From positions 1 to 64,000 of the forward strand of contig NZ_SGWQ01000013.1 of assembly GCF_004216555.1 (NCBI RefSeq): a DNA stretch of 64,000 nucleotides. The letters run 5' to 3'. Source of the DNA: Herbihabitans rhizosphaerae (lineage in GTDB: Bacteria > Actinomycetota > Actinomycetes > Mycobacteriales > Pseudonocardiaceae). This document shows, one piece after another, positions 1-16,261 of this stretch (its first letter is position 1; every line of letters starts with the position of its first letter). The position numbers and the translations under genes were made by a program. The notes under the pieces were generated by a model, which ran no database searches, was not told the origin of the DNA, and saw only the letters and a program-made list of their open reading frames with translations.

Positions 1-3000
1 TCACCGCACAACCCCGAACCACACCCAAAACCACATGACCCAACCGCCGCGCCACCGACAACCGCTCCACCAACACCACACCAACACCCTCGGCCCAAGC
101 GGTCCCGTCGGCGTCATCAGAAAACGACTTACACCGCCCATCAACCGACAACGCACGCTGACGCGAGAATTCGATGAACGCGTCCGGTGTCGCCATCACG
201 GCAACGCCACCCGCCAAGGCCATGGAACATTCGCCCTGCTGAACCGACTGCACCGCCAAATGCAACGCCACCAACGACGACGAACACGCCGTATCCACCG
301 TCACCGCAGGACCCTCAAGACCCAACACATACGAAACACGACCCGAAGCCACGCTCCCGGCCTTACCGATACCGAGATAACCGTCCACGCCGTCCGGAAC
401 CCGACCGATATTGGACGCGTAGTCGTGGTGCATCATGCCGAAGAAGACGCCAACGTCCTGACCGCGGAGTGACTTCGGGTTGATTCCGGCGTTCTCGATG
501 GTCTCCCAAGAAACCTCCAACAACAACCGCTGCTGCGGATCCATCGCCAACGCCTCACGCGGAGAAATACCAAAAAACTCCGCATCAAACCCAGCAACAT
601 CACCCAAAAACCCACCCGACCGAACATACGTCGTCCCCGGCACATCAGGATCCACATCAAACAACCCACCCAAATCCCAACCACGATCAACCGGAAAACC
701 ACCAACCGCATCCCCACCAGAAACAACCAACCCCCACAAATCCTCCGGCGAACACACCCCACCCGGCAAACGACAACCCATCCCCACAATCACAACCGGA
801 TCATCATCGACAGCCGGCCGCCCGAGGTCGCTGTCAACGGTCGGCTCGGGCCCGGCCGCAGCTCCGAAGAGCTCGCGGTACAGGTGACCGACGAGCACGT
901 CCACCGACGGGTAGTTGAACGCAAGAGCGGCCGGCAGCGACAGACCGGTCGCCACGACCAGCCGGGTGCGCAGCTCCACCGCGGTGGTCGAGGTGAAACC
1001 GAGATCCTTGAACGCGCGATCGGCCGCGACCACCGCCACCCCGGACAGAGCGCTGACCTCGGAGCGGACCATTTCGAGCAGCGCATCACGCTGCTCGGGC
1101 TCGGAGAGACCCGTCAACTCGGCCCGCAGCGCGGACGCCGTGGCCGGGTCGGCCGCGCGCGTCTCTGGCGTCACCTCGATGAGCCCGCGCAGCGGTCCGG
1201 GCACCACGCTCGACTCGAGTGCGGCGGTGTCCGGCTTCACTGCCGCGAGCGTCGGCGCGTCGGAGCCGAGCGCGGCGTCGAACATCGCCAGGCCGTCAGT
1301 AGTGCTCAGCGGCCGAACCCCGGCATGGTTGGGCCGAGGCGTGCCGACGAGGTCCCAGGCGAGGTTGAGCGCCGGCATCCCGTGCGCGCCCCGGCGCCGG
1401 GCCAGTGCGTCGAGGAAGGCGCTCTCCCCGGCACGATCACCGCCGAGCAGGCCGGACGAGGTGCCAACCAGGACGAACATCCGCAGATCGAGATCGCCGG
1501 TCAGCTCATGCAGGTTGACCGCACCGTCCACAGTGGACTGTGTGTGTACGACGGCACGAACGGGCATGGCCGCCTGCCGCAACGCACCGGCCAGTGCCGA
1601 CCGATCGGCGGGATCGCACGCGACGAGCGACACCTCCGCACCGAAACGGCCGAGGTCCTCGACCAACCGCTCCGCGGAGCCGGCGGCGGCGCCGTCCGGA
1701 CAGGTCAGCAGCAGACGCCGCACGCCGTGAACCGCGACGAGGTGTCGCGCCACCGCGGCGCCGGGCTCCGAGTCGACGCCGGTGACCATGACGGTGCCGT
1801 CACCGACGTCGAACGGCTCGCCGCCGACAACGCCATCGGTAAGGATTCTGGTCAGCCGGGGGCACAGCGGAACTCCTTGGCGCACAACGGTTTGCGGCTC
1901 GCCCAAACCGACCACGAGCGGAAGCGCCGCGACGTCCTCGTTCGTCGGCCCGAGATCGGTGATCGCGATTTCCGGCGCGTCCAGTTGTGCGGTGCGGACC
2001 ACCCCCCACACCGGCGCGCTGGCGAGATCTGCCACGTCGTCGCCGGCGCCCACGGCGACGGCACCCCGCGTCACCACGACCAGGCGGATGCCGCCGAGCG
2101 CGCCTTCGCCGTACGCGGTCAGCTGCCGTTCGACCGAGGCCACGCGATCGCGAACCGCATCCGTGATCCGGTCACCCGACTCGTCGCCGACGAGCAAAAC
2201 CGCCACTCGGGGCGCCGCTCGCCCGTTGGCGAGCTCACCCATCAGCGTGTCGAAGTCAGCGTACTCGTCAGCTTCGATCCCTTGTGTCGCAAGGGTTTCC
2301 ACAATCCCGAACCGATCACCGCCGAGGACCGCCCAGCTCTCGTCGGACACCTCCGCCGGAGACACCGACGGAACGGGAATCCAGTCCAACCGCAGCAGCG
2401 TCTCGTAGTGGCCGCTGCTCGACGCCCGCAGCCGCGCCGGCTGCTCGAGCAGCACGTGCCTGGTGATCTTTCCCGACGCGGTGCGCGGGATGCGGTCGAT
2501 CTCGTACAGCTCCTCGGGAAGCTTGAAGTAGGTCAGCTGCTCACGACAGGCGGCGAACACGTCGTCCGGATCGAAGCCGCCGTCACTCGCGACGATGAAC
2601 GCCACCGGGATCTCGCCGAGCACCTCGTGCGGTTTGCCGACGACCGCGACGTCCGCGACACCCGGCAGTTGCCTGATCACCGACTCGACCTCGCCGGGGT
2701 GGATGTTCTCCCCACCACGGATGATCAGTTCCTTGATGCGGCCCGTGATCGTGAAGTACCCCGCCTCGTCCCGGCGCGCGAGATCACCGGTCCGGTACCA
2801 GCCGTCGGTCACCGCCTGCCGAGTCGCCTCCGGCTGGTTGTGGTAGCCGACCATCACGCTCGGCCCGCTCACCCAGACCTCACCCTCCGCGCCCGCCGAC
2901 ACGTCCAGTCCGTTCTCCGGGTCGATCAGCCGGACACCGAGACCGGGCACCGGCAGCCCACAGGACCCTTCGACCCTCGCGCCGGTCGGCCAGTTGATCG

Positions 3001-3967
3001 TGATCGACCCGCAGGTCTCGGTGCTGCCGTAGGCGTCGAGCAGAGGCGCGCCGAAGGTCTCCTCGAACGACTTGCGCAGTTCCGCCGTCGTGACAGCGCC
3101 GCCGACCAGGCACATCCGCAGGTCGGGCGCCTGGAAGCCGCGCTCCCTCGCGGCGCGGACGAGGTGGTGGTACATCGTTGGCACGCCGGCGAGGAACGTC
3201 GAGGATTCCTCCCGCAGCACCGCCAGCACCTCGTCGGCGGAGAAGCCGTCGACGATCCGGGCGGTCGCGCCCACCGCCGTCACCGACAGCACGCAGGCGA
3301 TGTGCGACAGGCTGTGGAACAGCGGCAACGGCCACAGCACCCGGTCCTCGGCGGACAGCTCGGGGATGGGCACGTAGCAGGCGGCGACGGACCACAGGCA
3401 GTTCCGCTGAGTGGACAGCACGCCCTTCGGCCGCCCCGTGGTGCCCGACGTGTAAAGCATCCAGGCCACGTCGTCCAGTTCGAGGTCGTCCCGCGCCTGC
3501 CCGACCGGTTCGCTGTCCGCCAGCACGGCGAACGACACGGCCTCGGCCGGCGCCGGTTCGGCACCGACCACGATCACCCGGATGTGCGGGCGCTCCCGCA
3601 GCACGCTGCCGAGCGCCTCGAAGCGGACGAGGTCGGTCACCACGATCCGGGCGCCGCTGTCGTCCAACAGGTACGCCAACTCGGCCTCGGTGAGCTGTGG
3701 GTTCAGCGGCACACCGATCGCGCTGGCTCTGGTGATCGCCAGGTAGCTCTCGATCACCTCGACGCTGTTGGCCAGCAGGATCGCCGCCCGATCGCCGGGT
3801 TGGAGCCGCAGATCGGACAGGTGGCCGGCCAGCCGCCTGGTGCGATTCTCCAGATCCGTATAGGTCACGCTTCGCCGCTCGTCCCGAAACGCCACCTTGT
3901 CGCCAAATCGCTCCGCGTTGCCCATGAGCAACTCGGGAAGGGGGCGGATCAGCTCGGTGCGAAGCAT
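1..3967 (-). CDS. Type I modular PKS, ansamycin loading module plus start of KS1 (partial, RifA-like)
   Basis: First ~1322 residues of a modular PKS; the gene continues past base 1. A CoA-ligase-like A domain (residues 1-510) shows the P-loop YTSGTTGRPKG near 175, IKELIIRGGEN near 414 and PRTASGKI near 496; in rifamycin-type synthases this domain activates AHBA. A KR-like region (730-870) is degenerate: the nucleotide-binding loop reads TGVDSEPG and the Tyr/Asn segment before AFLDALA is missing. An ACP follows with the phosphopantetheine Ser in LGFTSTTAVEL (~992). KS1 begins near 1052 (VVIVGMGCRLPGG) with the active Cys in DTACSSS (~1227). The ATG at 3967 has GAGGAG upstream. This A-(KR)-ACP-KS order is that of the first ansamycin PKS protein. 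It is divergent from the gene at 4249. Codon use in parts of the KS differs from the loading module. The product ansamycin cannot be deduced from this part alone. Confidence 0.93.
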   Translation of the reverse strand, partial: MLRTELIRPLPELLMGNAERFGDKVAFRDERRSVTYTDLENRTRRLAGHLSDLRLQPGDRAAILLANSVEVIESYLAITRASAIGVPLNPQLTEAELAYLLDDSGARIVVTDLVRFEALGSVLRERPHIRVIVVGAEPAPAEAVSFAVLADSEPVGQARDDLELDDVAWMLYTSGTTGRPKGVLSTQRNCLWSVAACYVPIPELSAEDRVLWPLPLFHSLSHIACVLSVTAVGATARIVDGFSADEVLAVLREESSTFLAGVPTMYHHLVRAARERGFQAPDLRMCLVGGAVTTAELRKSFEETFGAPLLDAYGSTETCGSITINWPTGARVEGSCGLPVPGLGVRLIDPENGLDVSAGAEGEVWVSGPSVMVGYHNQPEATRQAVTDGWYRTGDLARRDEAGYFTITGRIKELIIRGGENIHPGEVESVIRQLPGVADVAVVGKPHEVLGEIPVAFIVASDGGFDPDDVFAACREQLTYFKLPEELYEIDRIPRTASGKITRHVLLEQPARLRASSSGHYETLLRLDWIPVPSVSPAEVSDESWAVLGGDRFGIVETLATQGIEADEYADFDTLMGELANGRAAPRVAVLLVGDESGDRITDAVRDRVASVERQLTAYGEGALGGIRLVVVTRGAVAVGAGDDVADLASAPVWGVVRTAQLDAPEIAITDLGPTNEDVAALPLVVGLGEPQTVVRQGVPLCPRLTRILTDGVVGGEPFDVGDGTVMVTGVDSEPGAAVARHLVAVHGVRRLLLTCPDGAAAGSAERLVEDLGRFGAEVSLVACDPADRSALAGALRQAAMPVRAVVHTQSTVDGAVNLHELTGDLDLRMFVLVGTSSGLLGGDRAGESAFLDALARRRGAHGMPALNLAWDLVGTPRPNHAGVRPLSTTDGLAMFDAALGSDAPTLAAVKPDTAALESSVVPGPLRGLIEVTPETRAADPATASALRAELTGLSEPEQRDALLEMVRSEVSALSGVAVVAADRAFKDLGFTSTTAVELRTRLVVATGLSLPAALAFNYPSVDVLVGHLYRELFGAAAGPEPTVDSDLGRPAVDDDPVVIVGMGCRLPGGVCSPEDLWGLVVSGGDAVGGFPVDRGWDLGGLFDVDPDVPGTTYVRSGGFLGDVAGFDAEFFGISPREALAMDPQQRLLLEVSWETIENAGINPKSLRGQDVGVFFGMMHHDYASNIGRVPDGVDGYLGIGKAGSVASGRVSYVLGLEGPAVTVDTACSSSLVALHLAVQSVQQGECSMALAGGVAVMATPDAFIEFSRQRALSVDGRCKSFSDDADGTAWAEGVGVVLVERLSVARRLGHVVLGVVRGCAV

Positions 3968-4190
3968 TGACGACACTCCTCTACGGGCGAGATATGAAGA
4001 CGTTTCACGCTCCGTTCGTGACGTTTGCCAACGGCACGGATGCGCAATCGAACCCGAGGCCCAGTCTCACGCCGGCAAAGCCAGCGCATTCCCCAGAACG
4101 CCCCCCTAACCCATCCCTAACTTCTGTCCTCGCGTAAGTATTCATGAATCCGCAATAGAGACCGCCGCGCGTCGGACATAGACTGACCGC

Positions 4191-4248: not shown

Positions 4249-5097
4249 ATGAGACAGCATTGGCTATGCTTCCACTTCACAAGATCACCGAGAGCCGCGA
4301 CGCAAGGAATCGAGCAAGTCATTTCGACCGTCGGCGCGGCGTTGGTCGAGCAAATCCGGTCCGAGGCGGGCAGTCGTTGGCTCTTCCACCGGGGAGGTGA
4401 AGGGCGACGGCAGGACATCGAGGTGTGGTTCCGAGCTACCGCGAGCACGCAGCGCGCCCTACGGGAGCTCGCACATCTCAAAGCCAACGAGATTGGCTGG
4501 TCGGCGCGGACTTTCAGGCAGAACCCGGGCATTCAGAAGCACGGCACCGCCGGTACGGCGGACCTCGCGGTCGAACTGGCGTCGATCTCCAGCGAGCTGG
4601 CACTCGGCCTGCTCAGCTGCCCGGACCCGGCATGGAGTCGAACATTGCCGGCCGCGATCCACCACTTGTCACGAGTCCTCGAATTCGTTCCGGAAAAACA
4701 TCGATTGAGCTTCCTCTTCCAGTGCTGGCAAACGTGGTCGAACACGCTCGAACCAGCTCGACGAGTAGCGGTCGGCGCATTTGCCGACATGGACGCCGGG
4801 CGCGCCACAAAAATCATTGAGTCCGTGCGAGTCGCCGAATCGACGGCGGCCCATTGGACCTCCTACGATTCCGCACTGGCCGAAACCCTGTCAGATAACG
4901 CCATCCCGAACGGCACACCGGTCAACTATCTGTTGTTCGAGCACGCGCATCTGACGAACAACCGACTCGGCATCGATACCGAGACTGAGGCGCGTGCGGC
5001 GAGGACACTGCGTTCCGCGCTCGTGTCCGGAATATCACTCGAATCTCTCACGACTCCTGCCGGCCAAGCTGACACACAAGTGTTCCAGGCAGTTTGA
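4249..5097 (+). CDS. Standalone LanB C-terminal / SpaB_C-like (thiopeptide-type) protein
   Basis: A 282-residue protein resembling the SpaB_C domain, the glutamate-elimination half of split lanthipeptide/thiopeptide dehydratases that is also found in tRNA-dependent peptide aminoacyl ligases. The N-terminus (HWLCFHFTRSP) fits the WxYF/L opening of the family. A central LASISSELALGLLS fits the conserved Ser-Glu-Ala-Leu helix, and HAHLTNNRLGIDTETEARAA near residues 240-260 matches the HMxxNRLG...E motif that closes SpaB_C. No full-length LanB N-terminal (glutamylation) domain or precursor peptide is visible nearby. It ends 25 bp before rifG on the same strand, so the two are probably co-transcribed. 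Its role in an ansamycin cluster is unknown; it could attach or eliminate an amino acid, or be a RiPP relic. The family call rests on motif resemblance by eye. Confidence 0.55.
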   Translation: MRQHWLCFHFTRSPRAATQGIEQVISTVGAALVEQIRSEAGSRWLFHRGGEGRRQDIEVWFRATASTQRALRELAHLKANEIGWSARTFRQNPGIQKHGTAGTADLAVELASISSELALGLLSCPDPAWSRTLPAAIHHLSRVLEFVPEKHRLSFLFQCWQTWSNTLEPARRVAVGAFADMDAGRATKIIESVRVAESTAAHWTSYDSALAETLSDNAIPNGTPVNYLLFEHAHLTNNRLGIDTETEARAARTLRSALVSGISLESLTTPAGQADTQVFQAV

Positions 5098-5122: not shown

Positions 5123-6178
5123 ATGACTTTCCCCGCGCACGGCGAGAAACAGACCGCGGCACCGCCGGAGCCGAGGACCGTTCGCGTCGACCTCGGTGAG
5201 CGGTCCTACGACGTCCGGATCGGGCCGGGTGTTCGGCGATCGCTGCCCGAGACGGTCGCGGAACTCGGCGCGCGCCGTGCCGCCGTTGTGACCGCGCGGC
5301 CGGACGAGTGGCTGCCCGATCTCGAAGTTCCCACGCTGGTCGTGCAGGCCCGTGATGGGGAGACGAACAAGACGCTCACCTGGGTCGCGGACGTGTGCAG
5401 CGAGTTCGCCCAATTCGGGCTCACCCGTTCCGACGTGGTGATCTCCTGCGGTGGGGGCACGACGACCGACTCCGTCGGACTCGCCGCGTCGCTCTACCAC
5501 CGCGGCGTGCCGGTCGTCCATCTGCCGACCTCGCTGCTGGCGCAGGTCGACGCCAGCGTGGGTGGCAAGACGGCCGTGAACATCCCGGAAGGCAAGAACC
5601 TGGTCGGTGCGTACTGGCAGCCGGCAGCCGTCCTCTGCGACACCGACTTCCTCGACACGCTGCCGCGGCGCGAGCTGATCAACGGTTACGGCGAGATCGC
5701 GCGCTGCCACTTCATCGGCGCGGGCGATCTGTTCGGCCTCCCGATCCACGACCAGATCGCCGCGTCGGTGGCGCTCAAGGCGTCGATCGTGTCCGCCGAC
5801 GAGCGCGACACGGGCCTTCGGCACATCCTCAACTACGGGCACACCCTTGGCCACGCCATCGAGCGCGCGACCGACTTCGCCATGCGACACGGCGAGGCGG
5901 TCGGGGTGGGCACCGTGTTCGCCGGCCGCCTCGCGGGCACGCTCGGCCGGATCGACGCCGACCGGGTCGCCGAGCACCACGAGGTCGTGGCCCGGTACGG
6001 CCTCCCGACGACGCTGCCGGCCGGCGTGCACCTCGACCGGCTGCTGGCCCTGCTGCGGCTGGACAAGAAGGCGGCGACCGGTGGGTTGACCTTCGTGCTG
6101 GACGGCCCGCGCGGGGTGGAGCTGGTGCGCGACCTGCCCGAGGCCGTCGTGGCAGGGGCGCTTCGAGAAATGCCGTGA
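5123..6178 (+). CDS. rifG: 3-amino-5-dehydroquinate (aminoDHQ) synthase, RifG-like
   Basis: A 351-residue protein of the dehydroquinate synthase family, the usual size for RifG. In AHBA biosynthesis it cyclises aminoDAHP to 5-deoxy-5-amino-3-dehydroquinate. Visible family motifs are the NAD-binding stretch ISCGGGTTTDSVGLAAS, the LPTSLLAQVDASVGGKTAVN block, the metal-ligand region GYGEIARCHFI and the two His motifs LNYGHTLGHAIE and RHGEAVGVG. The ATG at 5123 has GGAGG nine bases upstream. Primary-metabolism AroB would normally sit with aroK/aroC; here the neighbours are AHBA genes, which supports the amino-shikimate role. It converges with the phosphatase gene, stop to stop, with a gap of 4 bp. 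Confidence 0.93.
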   Translation: MTFPAHGEKQTAAPPEPRTVRVDLGERSYDVRIGPGVRRSLPETVAELGARRAAVVTARPDEWLPDLEVPTLVVQARDGETNKTLTWVADVCSEFAQFGLTRSDVVISCGGGTTTDSVGLAASLYHRGVPVVHLPTSLLAQVDASVGGKTAVNIPEGKNLVGAYWQPAAVLCDTDFLDTLPRRELINGYGEIARCHFIGAGDLFGLPIHDQIAASVALKASIVSADERDTGLRHILNYGHTLGHAIERATDFAMRHGEAVGVGTVFAGRLAGTLGRIDADRVAEHHEVVARYGLPTTLPAGVHLDRLLALLRLDKKAATGGLTFVLDGPRGVELVRDLPEAVVAGALREMP

Positions 6179-6182
6179 CACG

Positions 6183-6875
6183 CTACGAGCTGCCGCGGGA
6201 GACCGGCACCAGGCGCAGCAGGTCGGCCGGGGTCTCCAGCACGTGATCCGGCCGGGCCGCGAGCAGCGTCGCTCTGTCCGACTCGCCCCACATGGCGGCC
6301 GCCGAGGTGACGCCGGCGCCGCGAGCGCTCGCGATGTCGGTCACCGCGTCGCCGACCATGATCGCCGAATCGGGTTCCGCGCCGAGCAGGTCGAGCGCGC
6401 GCCGGACGATGTCCGGTGCGGGCTTCGGCCTCGCCACCTCGTCGGAGCCGATGACATGGTCGAACAACGCCAGCACACCGAGCCGGCCGAGCAGCGCCCG
6501 CGCCCGCTCACCACTCTTCCCGGTCGCCACGGCCATGCCGACGCCGGCGTCGCGCAGGGTGCTCAACAACTCCCGCACCCCGTCGAACAGGGTGACCTGG
6601 TGCGCGAGGCGGTGGCTCTCCCGGACGAACGGCTCCTCCATGGCCAGGGGGAGATCCATGATCCTCATGATGTCCGGAAAGTACCGGCCGAGGTGTCTCT
6701 CGTACTCGTCGAACGGCGCCTCGCCGTCCCCGACGACCTCGGCGTAGGCGATGGTGAACGCTTGGCGCATCACCGAGAAGCTGTCCGCGATCACCCCGTC
6801 GAGGTCGAACACGACCGCGGTCGTCGCCCGCGCGCCGACCGCGTCGCCGCCGTGTGCCATCAGCCTGGTGTTCAC
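6183..6875 (-). CDS. rifM: HAD-family phosphatase of the AHBA pathway, RifM-like
   Basis: A 230-residue HAD-superfamily hydrolase. Motif I is VVFDLDGVIADS (nucleophile Asp), motif II lies in AVATGKSGERA, and motif III/IV is the Lys of RPKPAPDIV plus MVGDAVTDIASARGAG. Genetic work on rifamycin and related clusters places RifM with RifK and RifL in forming kanosamine from UDP-glucose. The start is taken as GTG at 6875: AAGGAGGACTC stands directly before it, only a few bases after the rifL stop at 6886. The longer open frame would lie inside rifL. It is the last gene of a rifK-rifL-rifM operon, the same order as in the rifamycin cluster. Confidence 0.92.
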   Translation of the reverse strand: MNTRLMAHGGDAVGARATTAVVFDLDGVIADSFSVMRQAFTIAYAEVVGDGEAPFDEYERHLGRYFPDIMRIMDLPLAMEEPFVRESHRLAHQVTLFDGVRELLSTLRDAGVGMAVATGKSGERARALLGRLGVLALFDHVIGSDEVARPKPAPDIVRRALDLLGAEPDSAIMVGDAVTDIASARGAGVTSAAAMWGESDRATLLAARPDHVLETPADLLRLVPVSRGSS

Positions 6876-6885
6876 GAGTCCTCCT

Positions 6886-8007
6886 TCATCCGGCGACGGG
6901 CTGGCCTGTGATGGCCCGGTGCGCCGAGTCGTAGATCTGCTGAATGGCATGGATGGTCTGCCGTGCCTCTCGGATCGCCCGGCCCTTGCTCGCGGAATCG
7001 GCGAGCAGCGCGGGCACGTCGTCGAGTTGGTGGCGGTACTCTTCGCCGACAGGCTCGTCGGGTAGCTCGATCACCGTCGGCTCACCGTCGAACTCGCGGA
7101 CAAGGGTCGACCCGCTCACCCTGTTCGGGCTGAACCCGAAGGTGCATCGCAGCGTGGCGGTGCCTGCGCTGCCCTCGAACCGGACCAGCGTCACGTCGCG
7201 CGCCTCGTGCGAGGCCCAGCTCGCCCGCAGGGAGACCGACAGCCCGTCATCGGCGATCAGGAAGCCGCGTGCGGTGTCCTCGACGTTGCCTGGCCGACCA
7301 CCGCGCGGCTGCCCGGCGCCTTGCTCGTCATAGCGCCACGCCGCCTGCCGCGAACCATCGCTGATGAAGTCGTCGGACACGGTTCCGACGATCTGGTGGA
7401 ACGACACGGGCCCGAGCAGCGGCGTGATCGTGTCCAGCAGGTGCCACCCGAGATCCACCAGGGCACCGCCACCGGACAGCTTTTGGCTGGTGAACCATCC
7501 GCCGAGGTCCGGAACGCCGCGTGCCCGGACCCAGGCGAGGTCGACGTGCCGGATGCGTCCCAGCGTGCCGATGACCTCACCGAGCGCGCGCACGTCGGCA
7601 CGATGCCTGGCCGCGCTGCCGGCCAGCAGGACGGCGTCCGTCGCGCTCTCCGCGGCGGCCAGGTCGCTCGCCTCGTCCAGATTGAGGCACACCGGCTTCT
7701 CCAGGAACACCGAGATCCCGCCGCGCAACAGCCGGCACGCGATCTTGCTGTGCAGGTGGTTGGGCACAGCGACGACCGCTAGGTCGACGGCGGCCGGGTC
7801 GATCTCGGAGACGTCGGACAGCAGCGCGGCACCGCCACCGGCCGCCCCGACCGAGGCACGCGAGACGGGCTCCGGATCCACCAGCGCCACGACCTCGAAC
7901 TCCGGGTGGTCCAGCAGCCTCGGCAGCCAGATCGAACGCCCCGCCCAGCCGAGCCCGACGACGGCGATCTTGATCGGCGGCGCCGCGCCGGCGAACCTCG
8001 AAGTCAC
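6886..8007 (-). CDS. rifL: GFO/IDH/MocA oxidoreductase, RifL-like
   Basis: A 373-residue NAD(P)-dependent sugar oxidoreductase. The Rossmann motif is VVGLGWAGRSIWLP (residues 15-28) and the catalytic Lys sits in FLEKPVCLNL. GGGALVDLGWHLLD is the conserved C-domain segment with Asp and His. RifL is thought to oxidise UDP-glucose at C3, giving the 3-keto sugar that RifK aminates on the way to kanosamine. Its ATG overlaps the rifK stop (ATGA at 8004-8007), so translation is coupled. The 3' end is followed after 10 bp by the rifM start. Confidence 0.92.
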   Translation of the reverse strand: MTSRFAGAAPPIKIAVVGLGWAGRSIWLPRLLDHPEFEVVALVDPEPVSRASVGAAGGGAALLSDVSEIDPAAVDLAVVAVPNHLHSKIACRLLRGGISVFLEKPVCLNLDEASDLAAAESATDAVLLAGSAARHRADVRALGEVIGTLGRIRHVDLAWVRARGVPDLGGWFTSQKLSGGGALVDLGWHLLDTITPLLGPVSFHQIVGTVSDDFISDGSRQAAWRYDEQGAGQPRGGRPGNVEDTARGFLIADDGLSVSLRASWASHEARDVTLVRFEGSAGTATLRCTFGFSPNRVSGSTLVREFDGEPTVIELPDEPVGEEYRHQLDDVPALLADSASKGRAIREARQTIHAIQQIYDSAHRAITGQPVAG

Positions 8008-9170
8008 GACCGCGCCAGCGTCTCGGCGACGACGTCGGCAACCTGGTGGATCTGTTCCTCCGTGGCCAGCAACGTCCTGTGGTGCAACCAGATGCAGTCG
8101 GTGCTGATCGCCTCGGTGTTCGGGCAGCGCGTCGCGATCTCGTCGACCGTCTCGTTCGGCGCGTTGCTCTCCCAGAAGCCGTCGGACCGGTAAATGGCCC
8201 GGAATGCCGCGAAGGCCGGGAGGCCGGCACCGACCAGCGCGTCCACGAGTTCATTTCGGCGCTGTTCGGTAATTCCGGGAATGCGGAACATGGCCATGTA
8301 GTGCGACTTCCGGTCACACCTGTCGTCACGCGACTGGGTGACGACACCGGGAATCTCGGCCAGTCGAGCGGCGAGCACCGGCCAGCGTTCTTCTCGGGTG
8401 TCGACCTGCGAGTCGAGCCGGGCCAGTTGGGCGCGCAGCACGCTCGCGGAGAATTCGTTCATGCGGAAGTTCGAGCCGGACTTCTGGTGGAAATACAGGC
8501 GGTCCGCGCGCGGACGGCCACAGCTGTGCCGGAGGAACGCCTCCTCACGCAGCTCCCGGTCGGGAAAAGTGACCGCACCACCCTCACCGGCGGTCATCAG
8601 CTTCCCGTTCTGGAAGCTGAACGCGGCGACCGAGCCGAGCTCGCCGACCCGCTTGCCCTGCCATCGCGCCCCGTGCGCGTGCGCCGCGTCCTGCACGATC
8701 GGGACCCCCGTATCGGCGGACAGCTTCGCGAGCGCGTCCATGTCGGACATGTGACCGGCCATGTGCACCGGCATGATCGCGCGAGTCCTCGGCGTGATCA
8801 TGGCCTGTGTCGCGGCGACGTCGATGCAGTATGTCTCGGGGTCTACGTCGACGGGCACCGCGACGGCCCCCAGCCGCTGCGCCGCCTGCGACGACGAGAT
8901 GAAGGTGAACGCGGGCACGATGACCTCGTCACCCTGGCCGACCCCGAGCACCTGGAGGGCCAGCTCGAGCGCGTGAGTGCCGTTCGTCACGGCCAGCGCG
9001 TACTCGGAACCGTGGTGCATGGCGAACTCGCGCTCGAAGGAGTCGACCTCCGCACCGCCCATGCGCCACCACTGTCCCTGTTCGAGCGCCCTGACAAGAC
9101 CGGCTCGTTCCGCCTCGTCGAACTGGGGCCACGGCGGAAGAGTCAGCTGACGTCCTGAACTTGTGGACAT
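8004..9170 (-). CDS. rifK: AHBA synthase (PLP-dependent aromatase/aminotransferase), RifK-like
   Basis: A 388-residue enzyme with the same length as RifK and near-identical family blocks: LEQGQWWRMGG, LAVTNGTHALELALQV, AFTFISSSQAAQRLGA and PVHMAGHMSDMDALA. The PLP Lys is in FSFQNGKLMTAGEGG and the C-terminal signature is RNELVDALVGAGLPAFAAFRA. AHBA synthase aromatises aminodehydroshikimate to AHBA and also acts as the aminotransferase making UDP-kanosamine. It is the diagnostic gene for ansamycin and mitomycin type clusters. ATG at 9170 is chosen because GGAG precedes it by about five bases and family members begin here; an upstream in-frame extension to 9314 would run through the promoter region. 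First gene of rifK-rifL-rifM. Confidence 0.96.
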   Translation of the reverse strand: MSTSSGRQLTLPPWPQFDEAERAGLVRALEQGQWWRMGGAEVDSFEREFAMHHGSEYALAVTNGTHALELALQVLGVGQGDEVIVPAFTFISSSQAAQRLGAVAVPVDVDPETYCIDVAATQAMITPRTRAIMPVHMAGHMSDMDALAKLSADTGVPIVQDAAHAHGARWQGKRVGELGSVAAFSFQNGKLMTAGEGGAVTFPDRELREEAFLRHSCGRPRADRLYFHQKSGSNFRMNEFSASVLRAQLARLDSQVDTREERWPVLAARLAEIPGVVTQSRDDRCDRKSHYMAMFRIPGITEQRRNELVDALVGAGLPAFAAFRAIYRSDGFWESNAPNETVDEIATRCPNTEAISTDCIWLHHRTLLATEEQIHQVADVVAETLARS

Positions 9171-9438
9171 ATTTCTCCATTTCATCAGCCGGGAAGTACG
9201 AAGCTCCCCCGAATAGTCGGCTATTAGTTCGCAACGACTTCTCGTCAACCCCGGATAGCACATATCCGAGTTATCGCACAACAGCACGCTACCCCAGGTC
9301 AGGCGGATCGTCATTCCCCTCAGAGCACCCCTACCTCGCCCCAGTATCGATTCATCAAAGAATTACTCGTCACCGACCGGACGTTGAGATATGCTCGCTA
9401 TCGAAATGGATCCTGCGCGGAAGTATGCGAGGTGACAG
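9171..9438. promoter_or_regulatory. Divergent promoter region between rifK and rifJ
   Basis: A 268-bp gap between two divergent AHBA genes, less GC-rich than the flanking coding DNA. It contains CGGATA-gcaca-TATCCG, a perfect 6-bp inverted repeat at 9252-9268, about 80 bp upstream of rifK. No clear sigma-70 -35/-10 pair was assigned. It presumably holds both promoters and possibly a site for the SARP encoded at 10685. Confidence 0.4.
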
Positions 9439-9873
9439 GTGACCGAACTACTGCTGTTGAACGGGCCGAATCTCGGCATCCTCGGCCGGCGCGAGACCGA
9501 GGTCTACGGCACGGACACACTCGCCGACATCGAGCAGATGGTGGAGAAGGAGATCGCCGACGTCGGCTGGCAGGTCAGGTCGGTCCAACGCGAGTCCGAA
9601 GGTGAGTTGATCACCGCGGTCCAGGACGGCTACGACACCGTCGGCGCCATCGTGAACCCAGGCGCGCTGATGATCGCCGGGTGGAGCCTGCGTGACGCGC
9701 TCGCGAATTACCCGAAGCCGTGGATCGAGGTGCATCTGTCGAACGTCTGGGCCCGGGAGCGGTTCCGGCACGAGTCCGTGCTCGCTCCACTGGCCAGTGG
9801 CCTGATCGCCGGCCTCGGCGCGACCGGTTACGTGCTCGCGGCTCGCGCGCTGCGTTCCCTCGTCGCGGACTGA
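9439..9873 (+). CDS. rifJ: AminoDHQ dehydratase (type II dehydroquinase), RifJ-like
   Basis: A 144-residue type II dehydroquinase, normal for the family. Family landmarks are LLLNGPNLGILGRRE at the N-terminus (catalytic Arg), the flexible-loop Tyr in EVYGTDTL, NPGALMIAGWSLRDAL, EVHLSNVWARE with a conserved His, and FRHESVLAP. It dehydrates aminoDHQ to aminodehydroshikimate, the substrate of RifK. The MIAGWSL variant of the usual THTS segment is typical of AHBA-cluster enzymes as recalled. GTG start at 9439 with GAGG about 8 bp upstream. Its last 46 bp overlap the 3' end of the convergent rifI. Confidence 0.94.
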   Translation: MTELLLLNGPNLGILGRRETEVYGTDTLADIEQMVEKEIADVGWQVRSVQRESEGELITAVQDGYDTVGAIVNPGALMIAGWSLRDALANYPKPWIEVHLSNVWARERFRHESVLAPLASGLIAGLGATGYVLAARALRSLVAD

Positions 9874-10688
9874 TCGCTGCGGAGCTGGAAGAACTCGCGG
9901 TACAGACTCAGCTGTTCGGTCAGCATGTGGCGGCCCAGGTGCACGGCGTGGCCCTCGGCCGACGCGGCCGCGAGCAGTGGGGTCATTTCCGGCGTCATGA
10001 TGACGTCGGCCACGAGGCCCGGCCGACCGATGGCCGCCGGATCGAACGGCAGCGGATCCGCGGTCGACATCCCCAGCGGTGTGGCGTTCACCGCGATGTC
10101 GACCTTGTCGAGCACCGGAGTCGGCGTGGCGGCCGTTCGCCCTGGCCACAGCCGATCGAGGCGCTGGGCGAGGGCGTCGGCCCTTGCCGTGTCCCGGTCG
10201 CACAGGCGCAACACGTCCACTCCGGCGTCCAGCAGTGCCGGCGCGATCGCACTGCCCGCACCGCCGGTGCCGACCAAGGTCACCCGTGCACCGGCCGGGT
10301 CGTGGCCGCCACGGCGAAGCCCGGCGACGAAGCCCACACCGTCGAAGTTGTCGGCGTACCAACGCCCGTCCGATTCACGCCGTAGCGCGTTGGCGCCACC
10401 CGCGACCGACGCCGCGACGCTGGCGCGGTCGGCCAGCTCGACCGCGCCCGCCTTGTGCGGAATGGTGACCAGCAGCCCGTCGAGATTGCCGACGCGCCGC
10501 AGACCGCCGAACACCTCGACAAGATCCACCGCAGTCACGTGGATTGGCACCAACACGGCGTCCACGCTCTCCACGGCGAACAGTTCGTTGACCATCGCTG
10601 GCGCCCTGACCTGCGTGATCGGGTCACCCAGCACTCCGTACAGGCGGGTGGCGCCACCGACAGCGGCGTTGGCCGGGCCGCGGGTCAC
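9828..10688 (-). CDS. rifI: Shikimate dehydrogenase-family amino-quinate/shikimate dehydrogenase, RifI-like
   Basis: A 286-residue AroE/YdiB-family protein. The substrate-side catalytic Lys is in LLVTIPHKAGAVELAD and the Asp in DNFDGVGFVAG. The NADP loop is VGTGGAGSAIAPALLDAG. The usual SxS substrate motif of AroE is replaced (GDPITQVRAPAMVN), which suits a non-shikimate substrate. In rifamycin clusters RifI oxidises aminoquinate or aminoshikimate, a side or salvage step for aminoDHQ. The GTG start at 10688 overlaps the stop of the SARP gene (GTGA), so it is probably translated from the same message. An operon of regulator plus RifI is unusual. The 3' end overlaps rifJ by 46 bp. Confidence 0.88.
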   Translation of the reverse strand: MTRGPANAAVGGATRLYGVLGDPITQVRAPAMVNELFAVESVDAVLVPIHVTAVDLVEVFGGLRRVGNLDGLLVTIPHKAGAVELADRASVAASVAGGANALRRESDGRWYADNFDGVGFVAGLRRGGHDPAGARVTLVGTGGAGSAIAPALLDAGVDVLRLCDRDTARADALAQRLDRLWPGRTAATPTPVLDKVDIAVNATPLGMSTADPLPFDPAAIGRPGLVADVIMTPEMTPLLAAASAEGHAVHLGRHMLTEQLSLYREFFQLRSDQSATRERSARAAST

Positions 10689-13489
10689 GAACGCTCACTC
10701 GCACGCGACCCGGCCACCATGCGTCCGGCTTGGTCGCGCAGCCACTTTTGGGCCTGCCGCTGCCGTTCTGCCCGCGCGGCCCTGGAGAGCTGGCTGAACG
10801 CGAGATCACGCACGACAACGCTGTGGAACGCGAAGACAGGCTCGCCGGCACGCGAGTCGTGCACCTCGCGGCGAAGGAACTCACGCTCCTCGAACAGCTC
10901 CAGGTATCGCATCACCTCGTGGAGGTCGCGGCCCGATACGGCGGCCACACCCGCCGGGCATATCGACTCACCGAGCACCGCGGCGTCCTGCAGAACCGAT
11001 TTCTCCGTCAGCGACATCGCGTCCAATCGTGCCGCGATGACGCTCTGCACGGACGGCGGCGGCTCGAGGAACAGGTCGCTCAGATCCTGCTCGAACGCCT
11101 CGATCTGCCCGGCGCCGCCCGTCGGCGGTGACGGAAAGCCCTCGGCCTTGTCCCTGAGCATCCGCACGTACTCGACCGCGAATAGCGGGTTCCCACCGAT
11201 GCGGTTGAGCAGCGCGCGCTGAAAGGTCGCCAGCCTGCCCTCGGTGAGCGACGGTTCACCCGGCTCGCAGAGGCCGTACTTGTACGACAGTTCCTCGATG
11301 ATCCCCAGAATCGACTCGCCCGACAGCGGACCGATCTCCAGCTCCAGATCGACATCCTCGAGCCCGCCGGAGGAGGCCGGGCGCATGGTCGCCAGCACCA
11401 GCGCGGTTATGGCGGGACTCCGGACGAGCTCGCCGAGTACGGCGACCGCCGCGTCACCACCGTGGTGCGTGTCCTCGAAGATCGCGACCGTCGGGGTGCG
11501 CGCCGCGATCGCCGAGATGAGTCGAGCACACACCCGGAGCGCGGCGAGTTCGTCGACCGGCCCGGTCACCTCCCGCCGAGGGATCAGCAGATCGCGCAGC
11601 TCGCCCCGTAGCGTCGCCGCCGTCGGCTCGTGGCCGACCAGTTCGTGCACGGCGGCGGTGAGCTTGCGGTCGACGACCGCCGTCGGGTCGGAGTCGCTGA
11701 TCCCGGCCACCGACCGGAGCAATCCGGCCGCGGCGGCTCGCACCGGGTCGCGCCCGAACGGCGAGAAGCGACTGACCAGGATTCGCGCATCGGGATGTCT
11801 TTCCCGCACGGCCCTGCTGAATTCGGAGACGAGCCGGCTCTTTCCGGTGCCGGCCTCACCGACGATGGAGACCAGTGCGGAACTTCCCAGGCGGCGGACC
11901 TCGTCGAACCGCAGCCACAGCTCGCTCAGCTCCTGGTGGCGCCCTAGCAACGTCGTCGTGTCGTCGTTGTCGGCACGATTCATTCCGCCGACAGTGGAAA
12001 GCTCCCAGCCACCAATGGCGTCATCGCACTTCGTGAACTCGAACGCGCTCTTGTTCGCGTTTCTCGTCTTGTCGCACACGCGCGGCTTGCCTGGCGCCGA
12101 GGCGGACAGCAGTCGAAGGCAGTCGTCGATAACCGCGCCGATGACCCGGTACGGGTGACCGTCGTCCATCGACGGTCGAGACACCAGCACCTCACCGGTC
12201 GCGACCGCCACGCTGGCACCGACGGTGGTCCCCGCCACGCGCGCCCGGTCCGAGGACCCCTCCGCGAGTGCCGCGAACCGCCCGCAGATGGCCAACGCGG
12301 CGCGGATCGCCCGCTCCCCGTCGCGCTCCAACGTGTCCGGGACGCCGAACAGGGCGAGCCAGACCGAGCCGAAATGCTTAGCCACCTGCCCGCCCCACTG
12401 CTCGACCTCCTCGCGGACGATCGTGGCCAGCTCCTCGACGGTCTGGTCGAAGTCCTCGGGATCGGTCGCCACCGCCGTGTTCCAACTCGGCTGGACCTGC
12501 AGGATGGTCGCCCACTTACGCTCGACGTGGATGCCGTCGCCCGTGGCCGGCTGGTTCGCCGGCCGCCACCCGGCAGCCGGCGGATCGGGTTCGTCGATGA
12601 TCGCGGCCGTTGCGACAGGTACGTCGACGGTGATCTGTGCGCCGTTGTCGCGGCCGGCCGCGCCCATCTGGTCCGCCGAGGTCCGGCTGTGTGGGCCGAA
12701 GTGCCATGGCCAGCCGCGTTCGCGCAGGTCCAGCGCGGGGTCCTGGTCGAGGATGGCCCGCTCCAACTTCTGCAGCTCACGGCTAGGGTCCAGTCCCAGG
12801 GTCTCGACCAGCACCTGCCTGGTCCGCCGGTACACACTCAGCGCGTCGGCCTGCCGCCCGCACCGGTACAGGGCGAGCATGACCTGTCCGCACAGCCGCT
12901 CGCGGAGCGGCTCGGCCTCGGTGAGGGACTCGAACTGGTTGACCACCTCGTGATGCAGTCCGGTGGCCAACTGAGCCTCGGCGAGGTCCTCGAGCACGGC
13001 GAGTCGCGACTTCCGCACCACGCTCAGTTCGGGCCAGGCCACGCCGTGTTCCTGCAGGTCAGCGAGCACCGGACCGCGCCAAAGGGCGAGCGCCGCCCGC
13101 AAGTCACGGGCTGCCTCCGTCCATCTCCCGTCGGTCAGGTGATCACGACCTTGTTCGGCCAGCTCCCGAAACTGCGTGAGGTCGACCTTCTTCGAGTCGA
13201 CGGCGAGCAGGTATCCCGGCGATCGCGTGAGCAGTGCCGGCATTCCGGCGCCACCTTTCCCGCTGGCGCCGAGCACGCCGCGGAGGCCGGCGACCGCGTT
13301 CTGCAGGATCTTGCGGGCGGTCGCCGGAGGATCGTCCGCCCATAACGCGTTGACGAGCTTGCTCGTGGCCACGACCTGATTAGAGTTGAGCAAGAGGTAC
13401 CCCAGGATCGCTCGCTGGTTCACACCCCCGAGCGGCACCGGCAAATCCCCAGAGACGACCTCGAGGCCGCCAAGCACCCTGAATCGCAC
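10685..13489 (-). CDS. Large SARP regulator: wHTH-BTAD, degenerate cyclase domain, AAA ATPase
   Basis: A ~934-residue, probably cluster-situated activator. It opens with a SARP DNA-binding domain (VRFRVLGGLEVV, LLLNSNQVVATSKLVNALW) and a BTAD (about 100-245, ending in the LGLDPSRELQKLERAIL signature). Around 330-455 lies a class III nucleotidyl-cyclase-like domain (EQWGGQVAKHFGSVWLALFG, ERAIRAALAICGRFAAL), but the metal-binding Asp positions read LQV and GS, so catalysis is unlikely. A STAND/AAA ATPase follows (LLGRHQELSEL; Walker A GEAGTGKSRL near 547) with a C-terminal helical region. GTG at 13489 with GAGGGG just upstream is preferred; ATG at 13522 is a longer option. SARPs bind direct repeats near -35 boxes in biosynthetic promoters. 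It overlaps rifI by 4 bp. Confidence 0.85.
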   Translation of the reverse strand: MRFRVLGGLEVVSGDLPVPLGGVNQRAILGYLLLNSNQVVATSKLVNALWADDPPATARKILQNAVAGLRGVLGASGKGGAGMPALLTRSPGYLLAVDSKKVDLTQFRELAEQGRDHLTDGRWTEAARDLRAALALWRGPVLADLQEHGVAWPELSVVRKSRLAVLEDLAEAQLATGLHHEVVNQFESLTEAEPLRERLCGQVMLALYRCGRQADALSVYRRTRQVLVETLGLDPSRELQKLERAILDQDPALDLRERGWPWHFGPHSRTSADQMGAAGRDNGAQITVDVPVATAAIIDEPDPPAAGWRPANQPATGDGIHVERKWATILQVQPSWNTAVATDPEDFDQTVEELATIVREEVEQWGGQVAKHFGSVWLALFGVPDTLERDGERAIRAALAICGRFAALAEGSSDRARVAGTTVGASVAVATGEVLVSRPSMDDGHPYRVIGAVIDDCLRLLSASAPGKPRVCDKTRNANKSAFEFTKCDDAIGGWELSTVGGMNRADNDDTTTLLGRHQELSELWLRFDEVRRLGSSALVSIVGEAGTGKSRLVSEFSRAVRERHPDARILVSRFSPFGRDPVRAAAAGLLRSVAGISDSDPTAVVDRKLTAAVHELVGHEPTAATLRGELRDLLIPRREVTGPVDELAALRVCARLISAIAARTPTVAIFEDTHHGGDAAVAVLGELVRSPAITALVLATMRPASSGGLEDVDLELEIGPLSGESILGIIEELSYKYGLCEPGEPSLTEGRLATFQRALLNRIGGNPLFAVEYVRMLRDKAEGFPSPPTGGAGQIEAFEQDLSDLFLEPPPSVQSVIAARLDAMSLTEKSVLQDAAVLGESICPAGVAAVSGRDLHEVMRYLELFEEREFLRREVHDSRAGEPVFAFHSVVVRDLAFSQLSRAARAERQRQAQKWLRDQAGRMVAGSRASERS

Positions 13490-13839
13490 GGTCCCCTCAT
13501 TTATCATGGTTATGCCATTCATGGACCTAACAAAGAAACGCGGAACTAAATTCGATTAATTCTCACGATACATGCCATTCGGGCTCATCTGGAGGGTCGA
13601 AGCGGGCGAACATTCAACACCACCCCCGCGATGGATATGAGGACAAAGGCTCACCGGTCCACGGTCAAACCATTTTCCCCGTCACCCAGCTTCAATACCT
13701 TCCGTGACATTATCTAACACAAAGCAAGGCTACCTAAGCAGGTGATCATGCGCAAGTATCCGAGCACGCTCGCTGAGTACATCTTAAGCTTTCCTCAAGG
13801 CGCTGACCTGCGGCTTTACTCATCCTTGCGCCGAGAACA
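13490..13839. other. Gene-free region upstream of the SARP gene
   Basis: About 350 bp, noticeably AT-richer than the surroundings, between the SARP start and the decayed regulator to the right. It must contain the SARP promoter. A short GGCTACCTAA element near 13730 resembles half of an iron box but lacks one base of the spacing. No gene, RNA or clear inverted repeat was recognised. Confidence 0.4.
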
Positions 13840-14935: not shown

Positions 14936-16261
14936 GTGACCATGGACAACGCCGTCCCGCTCCTCGATCGTGACGCCGAGGGAGCCGACCCGCGACAACG
15001 CCGTGAACTCCAGGGTGCCCGCCTGCGCGACCTGATCGATCGGCTGCTGGGCGCCGGCGGCCTGCAGGCGGCCCGGCTGCGCGACGCGGGTGTCGAGCGT
15101 GGCGGCGACGTGACCTTGGACGACCTGCACCGCCTCCCGATGGTGACCAAGGCCGACCTGTGGGCGCACTATCCGCACGGCCTGCGCGCGGTCGACGCCG
15201 AGGAGATCGTCTGCGTGCACGGCTCCTCCGGCACGGGCGGGCGGCCGACCCTGATTCCCTACACGGCGCACGATCTGGACGTGTGGGCGCAGGTGATGGC
15301 CCGCGCACTCGCGGGCGCCGGAGCCACCCGCTCGAGCGTGATCCACAACGCCTACGGGTACGGGCTGTTCACCGGCGGGCTGGGCGTGCACCACGGCGGA
15401 ATCCGGTTGGGCGCAACGGTTCTCCCGCTCTCCGGCGGCATGACCGACCGGCAGGTGCGCATGATCGCCGATCTTCGCCCCGACATTCTGACCTGCACGC
15501 CGTCGTACGCGATCTTCCTCGGCGAGGCGCTGCGCACGGCCGGCGTCGCCACCGATCTCCGCGCCGGCGTGTTCGGTGCCGAACCGTGGACCGACGAGAT
15601 GCGCACGCAGATCCAGTCGCTGCTCGGCCTGCGCGCGCTGGACATCTACGGCCTGTCCGAGATCATCGGGCCGGGTGTGGCGTGCGAGTCGCTCGACTCC
15701 GACGGGATGCTCAACGTCGCTGAGGACCACTTCTATGTGGAAACCGTTGACGCGCAAGGGAATCCGGTGCCGGACGGCACACCGGGCGAGTTGGTGTTCA
15801 CGACGCTCACCAAGACCGGTATGCCGCTGCTGCGCTACCGCACCGGCGATGTGGCGAGCCTGGCCGGCCCGGTCGCCGGCTCGCCACGCACGCTGCGCCG
15901 GATGTCGAAGCTGCTCGGCCGCACCGACGACATGCTGGTCGTGCGCGGCGTGAACGTCTTCCCCACCGAGATCGAGGCGGTACTGCTGGCCGACGTCCGG
16001 GTCAGCCCGCATTACCTGATCGTGGACGACCGCCGGGTCGCCGCCCGCCCGGAGCTTCGGGTCGCCGTTGAGCCGTTCGAGTCCACTGTGGACAACGATC
16101 GGCTGGGCACCGAGCTGACCGGCGCGCTGCGCGAGCGGCTCGGCATCTCCTGCGTGGTCAGCGTTCTCGGGCCGGGCAGCGTGCCGCGCACCGAGGTCGG
16201 CAAGGCGCGGCGGCTCGCCCGTTGGACAGAGGGTGAGCCGCCGCTCGCCGGACTCGGTTAG
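14936..16261 (+). CDS. Phenylacetate-CoA ligase (PaaK) family AMP-forming enzyme
   Basis: A 441-residue acyl-adenylating enzyme of the PaaK type, which makes aryl-acetyl or aryl-CoA thioesters. The P-loop is HGSSGTGGRPTLIPYT (~residues 93-108), followed by NAYGYGLFTGGLG, the acyl-binding YGLSEIIGPGVACE and the C-terminal LLGRTDDMLVVRGVNVFPTEIE hinge. VPRTEVGKARRL near the end carries the conserved Lys. Length is normal. It starts with GTG at 14936 or ATG at 14942; both have only a weak AGCAGG. No other phenylacetate catabolic genes are adjacent, so the substrate is open. It lies next to an AHBA cluster but is separated by the tRNA, and nothing ties it to ansamycin synthesis. Convergent with the DsbA gene, overlapping it by 4 bp. 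Confidence 0.85.
   Translation: MTMDNAVPLLDRDAEGADPRQRRELQGARLRDLIDRLLGAGGLQAARLRDAGVERGGDVTLDDLHRLPMVTKADLWAHYPHGLRAVDAEEIVCVHGSSGTGGRPTLIPYTAHDLDVWAQVMARALAGAGATRSSVIHNAYGYGLFTGGLGVHHGGIRLGATVLPLSGGMTDRQVRMIADLRPDILTCTPSYAIFLGEALRTAGVATDLRAGVFGAEPWTDEMRTQIQSLLGLRALDIYGLSEIIGPGVACESLDSDGMLNVAEDHFYVETVDAQGNPVPDGTPGELVFTTLTKTGMPLLRYRTGDVASLAGPVAGSPRTLRRMSKLLGRTDDMLVVRGVNVFPTEIEAVLLADVRVSPHYLIVDDRRVAARPELRVAVEPFESTVDNDRLGTELTGALRERLGISCVVSVLGPGSVPRTEVGKARRLARWTEGEPPLAGLG

Follow-up and report, generated by a model that had tools for sequence, protein, structure and literature searches.

A standalone SpaB_C-fold protein recurs in ansamycin-type AHBA clusters and may assist in making the aromatic starter unit

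To our knowledge, the SpaB_C fold is known only from peptide modification. It forms the elimination domains of the class I LanB dehydratases NisB, MibB and MadB, which also carry an N-terminal glutamylation domain, and it stands alone, at a size similar to that of the protein described here, in TbtD and PbtD, the thiopeptide pyridine synthases of the aza-[4+2] type. According to the accessible part of PMC11212132, SpaB_C domains carry out glutamate elimination or cyclization, aminoacyl-tRNA is used by the LanB domain PF04738, and PEARLs and PF14028 do not co-occur. The same part describes PEARLs such as SnaE, for which a 'lantibiotic dehydratase' gene lies in a PKS/NRPS context that has no precursor peptide (PMC11212132). 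For the ansamycins, AHBA biosynthesis is described in the accessible part of PMC8788734 as rifGHIKLMN together with rifJ. In the accessible part of PMC12623338, asm43-47 of Actinosynnema pretiosum are AHBA genes arranged in the operons asm43-44 and asm45-47, and they were down-regulated in a regulator mutant making less ansamitocin.

The window analyzed here is a stretch of 64,000 nucleotides of Herbihabitans rhizosphaerae (genome G000), and the observation of a lone SpaB_C protein inside its AHBA cluster is confirmed. The open reading frame (4249-5097, forward strand) starts with ATG and encodes 282 aa, with the stop codon ending at 5097; its GC3 was 0.70, against 0.82-0.90 in the nine other genes measured. 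A search of the SpaB_C and PEARL families had been suggested in the first-pass annotation, and in the Pfam scan the single match was PF14028 (Lant_dehydr_C/SpaB_C, E 8e-12), with no other Pfam family and in particular no PF04738, the PEARL aminoacyl-tRNA ligase domain. The PF14028 score was 46.3 bits against a curated cut-off of 24.4, and residues 5-257 aligned to positions 1-254 of the 255 in the profile, so the match is full-length. The NCBIfam and PADLOC searches gave no match, and the PDB sequence search with the protein directly gave no relevant match.

An AlphaFold2 model was built on 13 aligned sequences (pLDDT 84.3, pTM 0.84). With an E threshold of 0.001, Foldseek found 19 chains for this model, every one an entry of MibB, MadB, NisB, TbtD, PbtD, the aza-[4+2] cyclase or TsrL. 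The top 12 VIA-align rows were likewise all SpaB_C-type entries with Z 15.8-18.4 (MadB 18.4, TbtD 17.9, aza-cyclase 17.7, NisB 17.6, MibB 17.0, PbtD 16.9 and TsrL 15.8), and the next row had Z 11.4 over 76 residues, covering the ferredoxin-like part only. The window protein is thus predicted by the model to have the ferredoxin-like plus helical SpaB_C fold, and because of these fold matches the family call is independent of any single motif. The SpaB_C assignment made earlier is therefore borne out both by the full-length PF14028 match and by the fold. NisB, MibB and MadB share PF14028 as well as the fold with the window protein, which lacks their N-terminal glutamylation domain. TbtD (242 aligned residues, 3.4 A) and PbtD (243 aligned residues, 3.8 A) resemble it in standing alone, but their identity to it is only 9-15%, its setting is an AHBA/PKS cluster, unlike theirs, and it has no LanB glutamylation partner of the TbtD kind making dehydroalanines, since PF04738 is absent from G000.

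Pfam annotation of the neighbors confirmed that the gene lies between a PKS and rifG. The type I PKS gene (2..3976, reverse strand; AMP-binding, SpnB_Rossmann, KR, PP-binding and ketoacyl-synt), with a putative AHBA-type loading module, is divergent from the SpaB_C gene, starting at 3976, and is cut because the window begins at base 1 of contig C13. On the other side is the gene for a rifG-like aminodehydroquinate synthase (5123..6178, forward strand; DHQ_synthase E 2.3e-42, DHQS_C E 2.4e-32). There are 25 bases between the SpaB_C stop (5097) and the rifG ATG (5123), and a good ribosome site (CTGGAGGA) precedes the rifG start, so the co-transcription with rifG that had been proposed is probable, as read from the sequence. 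Then follow genes for a rifM-like HAD phosphatase (6183..6950, reverse; HAD_2 E 1.1e-33), a rifL-like oxidoreductase (6886..8007, reverse; GFO_IDH_MocA E 3.6e-19), a rifK-like AHBA synthase/aminotransferase (8004..9314, reverse; DegT_DnrJ_EryC1 E 9.8e-118), a rifJ-like type II dehydroquinase (9439..9873, forward; DHquinase_II E 6.1e-46), a rifI-like aminoshikimate dehydrogenase (9828..10688, reverse; Shikimate_dh_N E 1.2e-13) and a SARP-type regulator (10685..13522, reverse; BTAD E 6.1e-47, AAA_16). A PaaK-like AMP-binding protein is encoded beyond the SARP regulator (14936-16261). Contig C7 of the same genome encodes PKS modules, a RifF-type protein, an Orf19-like hydroxylase and a RifN-type kinase, which probably represent the remainder of the AHBA cluster of the window. 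Across the genome, a class II DAHP synthase was matched once, on contig C4, and a copy of RifH type is absent.

The absence of a dehydratase partner, claimed earlier for the surroundings of the gene, holds beyond a cluster scan, since PF04738 (Lant_dehydr_N) had 0 matches across the whole genome G000. Of the 12 genomes with SpaB_C that were searched for PF04738, G000 among them, four had no match (G000, G162, G336 and G352), and in the remaining 8/12 the matches lay on different contigs or hundreds of kb from SpaB_C. The LanB/RiPP reading was rejected, because PF04738 is missing from the own genome and distant from SpaB_C in these 8/12 genomes.

In NisB, the substitutions R786A, R826A and H961A left glutamate transferred but not eliminated, according to the accessible parts of PMC4979651 and, for H961, also PMC4341554. 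The motif columns were read from a profile alignment of the SpaB_C clade (21 members) with LanB-type SpaB_C proteins. We presume that NisB R786, R826 and H961 lie on the LanB motifs HxRxRx, YEPExxK/RFG and HLxxNRLG. The HxRxRx motif aligned to clade columns without Arg (E58, W60); the Glu of YEPExxK/RFG was kept in 0 clade members (G94 in the window protein), and at the Lys of YEPExxKFG (K97) Lys or Arg was found in 5/21. The HxHxxNNRLG motif noted in the first-pass annotation is present in the window protein as HAHLTNNRLG (residues 232-241), but two of its positions are not conserved in relatives: the second His (H234, the His of HLxxNRLG) was kept in 7/21 clade members and the second Asn in 6/21. 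Judged from this alignment, the LanB glutamate-elimination motifs are lost in the clade. Another set of residues is conserved, with L156, F157, W160, R172 and R255 in 21/21 members, H139 in 20/21, and R152, C159 and Y206 in 19/21.

These results bear on the proposal that SpaB_C acts on aminoacylated peptides, either attaching an amino acid to AHBA or to the ansamycin, or carrying out a LanB-like elimination from an aminoacylated substrate. Membership in PF14028 is the one point in its favor. The elimination motifs are missing from the clade, PF04738 is absent or distant as described above, and by the accessible part of PMC11212132 the LanB half that uses aminoacyl-tRNA is the other domain; PEARLs represent that opposite half (PF04738), whereas the window protein has PF14028 only. 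The proposal was not upheld and is extremely improbable.

To place the gene among AHBA clusters, AHBA synthase was called at E at most 1e-120, and was found in 38/390 genomes of the family of the window, 25/394 class genomes and 39/392 genomes of the genus of G512. SpaB_C relatives were present in 21/100 AHBA-synthase genomes examined, and 79/100 had no detected member of the clade. The other clade members were 22-33% identical to the window protein; only 8/21 members matched PF14028 at E 0.01 and 4/21 matched TIGR03891. In 20/21 of the genomes with both, SpaB_C lay inside an AHBA cluster, the exception being the weakest member (G1066, E 1.4e-17), with no AHBA gene within the surrounding 18 kb.

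With the window protein as query, matches were obtained in 22/390 family genomes, 11 of them in AHBA clusters. The SpaB_C of G155 (L031:9424-10326) belongs to the same clade, yet it has no AHBA genes nearby and its genome has no AHBA synthase; its neighbors encode SAM synthetase, GHMP kinase and a POR-type oxidoreductase. The other 10/22 matches were weaker (E 3.9e-9 and worse) and are another kind of protein, with no AHBA genes within ~10 kb on each side in 9/10 (G094 left out). In the family, where the 12 matches of the clade profile are by construction, it found no additional AHBA genome; among genomes outside the family, it matched in 10/62 with AHBA synthase, four of them by construction. 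A single-sequence scan of the genome contig collection with the window protein found no close relatives. The motif-pattern scan of the same collection gave 51 stretches and 12 confirmed loci, six of which were genomes already counted, and all 12/12 confirmed loci hold AHBA genes.

In 21/26 distinct AHBA loci, rifG directly follows SpaB_C on the same strand. SpaB_C does not adjoin rifG in the other 5/26 (G223, G146, G162, G336 and S. hokutonensis). A second PKS piece of the AHBA-loading type lies between SpaB_C and rifG, beside Orf19, in G146 and G162 (L027:5121-7988 and L029:11863-14697). Three AHBA clusters have a YceI-like gene in divergent orientation to SpaB_C (L033:9187-9729, L034:10452-10982 and L027:10829-11398). 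The window gene is not a stray LanB piece, as its relatives recur in AHBA clusters; SpaB_C belongs, as a recurrent component, to one group of AHBA (ansamycin-type) clusters and not to a peptide pathway. The rifamycin-type AHBA operon (rifF-G-H-I-K-L-M-N) has the same AHBA enzymes, including rifG, as the clusters with SpaB_C, but has no SpaB_C in the 8 rows of its clade on the RifK tree. Since these operons lack SpaB_C and none was detected in 79/100 AHBA genomes, the protein is no general requirement for AHBA.

Replacement of the amide synthase RifF by SpaB_C was also considered and rejected. A RifF-type PF00797 protein is in-cluster in 7/11 family genomes with SpaB_C, and in the genome of the window contig C7 carries one next to PKS modules and Orf19. 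No RifF-type PF00797 protein was found in the 120 kb read in G004 and G336, the two genomes with a 192-aa SpaB_C, whose clusters are thus also without an in-cluster RifF. Compensation for a missing RifH (aminoDAHP synthase) was rejected as well, because 3/11 family clusters with SpaB_C and several Streptomyces ones have RifH, so there is no clean exchange.

Two genomes of the same genus as Actinosynnema pretiosum DSM 44132 (G068) were compared, namely G057 and G066. Cluster I of G057 encodes amide synthase, halogenase, 3HCDH, ACP, acyl-CoA dehydrogenase, acyltransferase, carbamoyltransferase, ROK kinase, rifJ, rifK and PKS, a content that we take to be the ansamitocin gene set; it has rifN, rifJ, rifK and PKS but no rifG, rifL or rifM. 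Cluster II, 75 kb from cluster I, has the order rifK-rifL-rifM-SpaB_C-rifG and is adjoined by neither a PKS nor an amide synthase nor Orf19, and within the 140 kb read the rifG, rifL and rifM of G057 are in cluster II only. Pfam found no family on the G057 SpaB_C protein. G066 has the same genes as the G057 locus, but with PKS, RifF and Orf19 between rifM and SpaB_C. Aligned across the junction, the two genomes show a clean difference of 44.9 kb, absent in G057, with ~10 shared bases, and loss in G057 would be the simpler direction because other loci with SpaB_C have a PKS beside the gene. The SpaB_C frame is intact in G057, with 10 synonymous and 11 nonsynonymous changes on the G057 side versus 7 and 10 on the G066 side. 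For RifG there were 3 synonymous and 8 nonsynonymous changes in G057 versus 7 and 0 in G066; these numbers are small, and on their account the AHBA locus of G057 may be loosening. We take asm47 to be rifG. The operons asm43-44 and asm45-47, as given in the accessible part of PMC12623338, fit the gene order of cluster II, in which SpaB_C takes the position of asm46; going by gene order, the protein would be Asm46.

For the SpaB_C protein, the role is proposed to be in AHBA supply rather than in tailoring or amino-acid attachment, a reading to which we give nearly, but not quite, an even chance. It is the most economical one because the SpaB_C-rifG pair persists at a locus that lacks PKS, amide synthase and hydroxylase, and because cluster II of G057 presumably feeds AHBA to a different (benzenic) PKS. 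Counting for it are the rifG pairing (21/26), the AHBA genes at all 12 scanned loci, the dN/dS values given below, the loss of LanB motifs and, within the accessible text, the asm45-47 operon. Counting against it are the 79/100 AHBA genomes with no detected SpaB_C, the 5/26 loci away from rifG, the two members short of ~90 residues, G155 without AHBA genes, and the RifG changes in G057 (3:8). Next to RifG, SpaB_C would use the former peptide cleft to bind either RifG itself or an intermediate of the aminoshikimate pathway, and may promote or shield a step on the way from kanosamine to AHBA by means of the conserved set H139, R152, FLFxCWQxW, R172, Y206 and R255. Within AHBA supply it could be a RifG partner, or could bind a labile intermediate, an amino sugar or cyclitol, or catalyze its conversion.

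The main competing reading places SpaB_C in the making of naphthalenic ansamycins, as a tailoring enzyme or on the assembly line. With the MhpA-like hydroxylase Orf19 as its companion, it would catalyze ring closure, aromatization or [4+2] chemistry on the AHBA-primed polyketide. The fold is common to aza-[4+2] cyclases and pyridine synthases, SpaB_C lies between PKS and rifM, away from rifG, in S. hokutonensis and G223, and Orf19 directly adjoins it in G146 and G162 and is in-cluster for 11/13 SpaB_C clusters read widely on one contig. Among the 80 of 101 genomes compared, an Orf19-like protein at >=435 bits, that is at least 435, was found in 19/21 genomes with SpaB_C versus 45/59 without, and at >540 bits in 19/21 versus 24/59, with a query that came from a cluster with SpaB_C and thus favors that side. 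However, the same 45/59 show that most AHBA genomes without SpaB_C have the hydroxylase, G057 has SpaB_C without any Orf19 match and without an adjoining PKS, and the G223 cluster holds only an Orf19 fragment. A role in tailoring or on the assembly line is considered doubtful. Orf19 as the sole partner of SpaB_C was rejected, since it is also common without SpaB_C.

SpaB_C is under purifying selection, with dN/dS of 0.04-0.53 in 9/9 pairs; RifG in the same pairs had 0.16-0.36, and SpaB_C was above RifG in 8/9, so it is constrained but more loosely. On the RifK tree (54 rows, 24 with SpaB_C), the SpaB_C label required 7 changes on the best tree versus 18.1 in shuffles, with 0/500 as low; the well-supported branches alone force only 1 change, and near-copies add to the clustering of the label. 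The rif-type operons form the SpaB_C-negative clade of 8 rows. SpaB_C is inherited with the cluster and has probably undergone several gains or losses. A hitchhiking relic with no present role, kept by lying in the rifG operon, would suit the patchy distribution, the 7 changes and the dN/dS of up to 0.53, but it is very unlikely given the intact frames across several genera of the family of the window and in Streptomyces, the dN/dS below 0.55 in 9/9 pairs and the clustered label.

SpaB_C might also have no catalytic activity and serve as a scaffold or docking protein, linking for instance the AHBA pathway to the PKS loading module; drift and truncation would then reflect active-site loss. This is consistent with the 22-33% identity to the window protein, the dN/dS above that of RifG, the lack of any LanB catalytic motif, and the two 192-aa members in G004 and G336 (L033:9883-10461 and L034:9666-10244), which are without the first ~90 residues and so without the ferredoxin-like half. 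It is nevertheless judged improbable, as the conserved R172, R255, W160, H139 and R152 resemble a binding or catalytic site.

In searches of the open-access literature on ansamycin/AHBA genes, asm43-47, and lantibiotic dehydratase/SpaB_C names, no description of the gene was found among the papers listed; it is real and recurrent and, as far as these searches show, undescribed. Since the standard family models miss most members (Pfam finds 8/21 at E 0.01), this may be why it escaped notice. The aromatic starter unit of ansamycin-type antibiotics may be made with the help of SpaB_C, a contribution that would so far have been overlooked. The fuller proposal, that a LanB-elimination/aza-Diels-Alderase fold was recruited outside peptide chemistry as an unrecognized AHBA-pathway protein, present in about one-fifth of the sampled AHBA-bearing actinomycetes and encoded by gene four of the ansamitocin AHBA locus, asm46 by position, is tentative and falls appreciably short of an even chance. 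If true, the conserved extra protein beside RifG would be an added step or partner in the pathway behind rifamycin- and maytansinoid-type drugs, and the SpaB_C fold would have a non-peptide role.

One clade member is located on a 297-kb linear Streptomyces plasmid, where its annotation is only 'lantibiotic dehydratase C-terminal domain-containing protein'. The plasmid-borne ansamycin region (NZ_CP108007.1, 46507-55667 and 73906-76233; L176) also contains extra shikimate-type genes encoding two class II DAHP synthases, aroB, aroC, aroA, transketolase and chorismate mutase, which perhaps feed the pathway.
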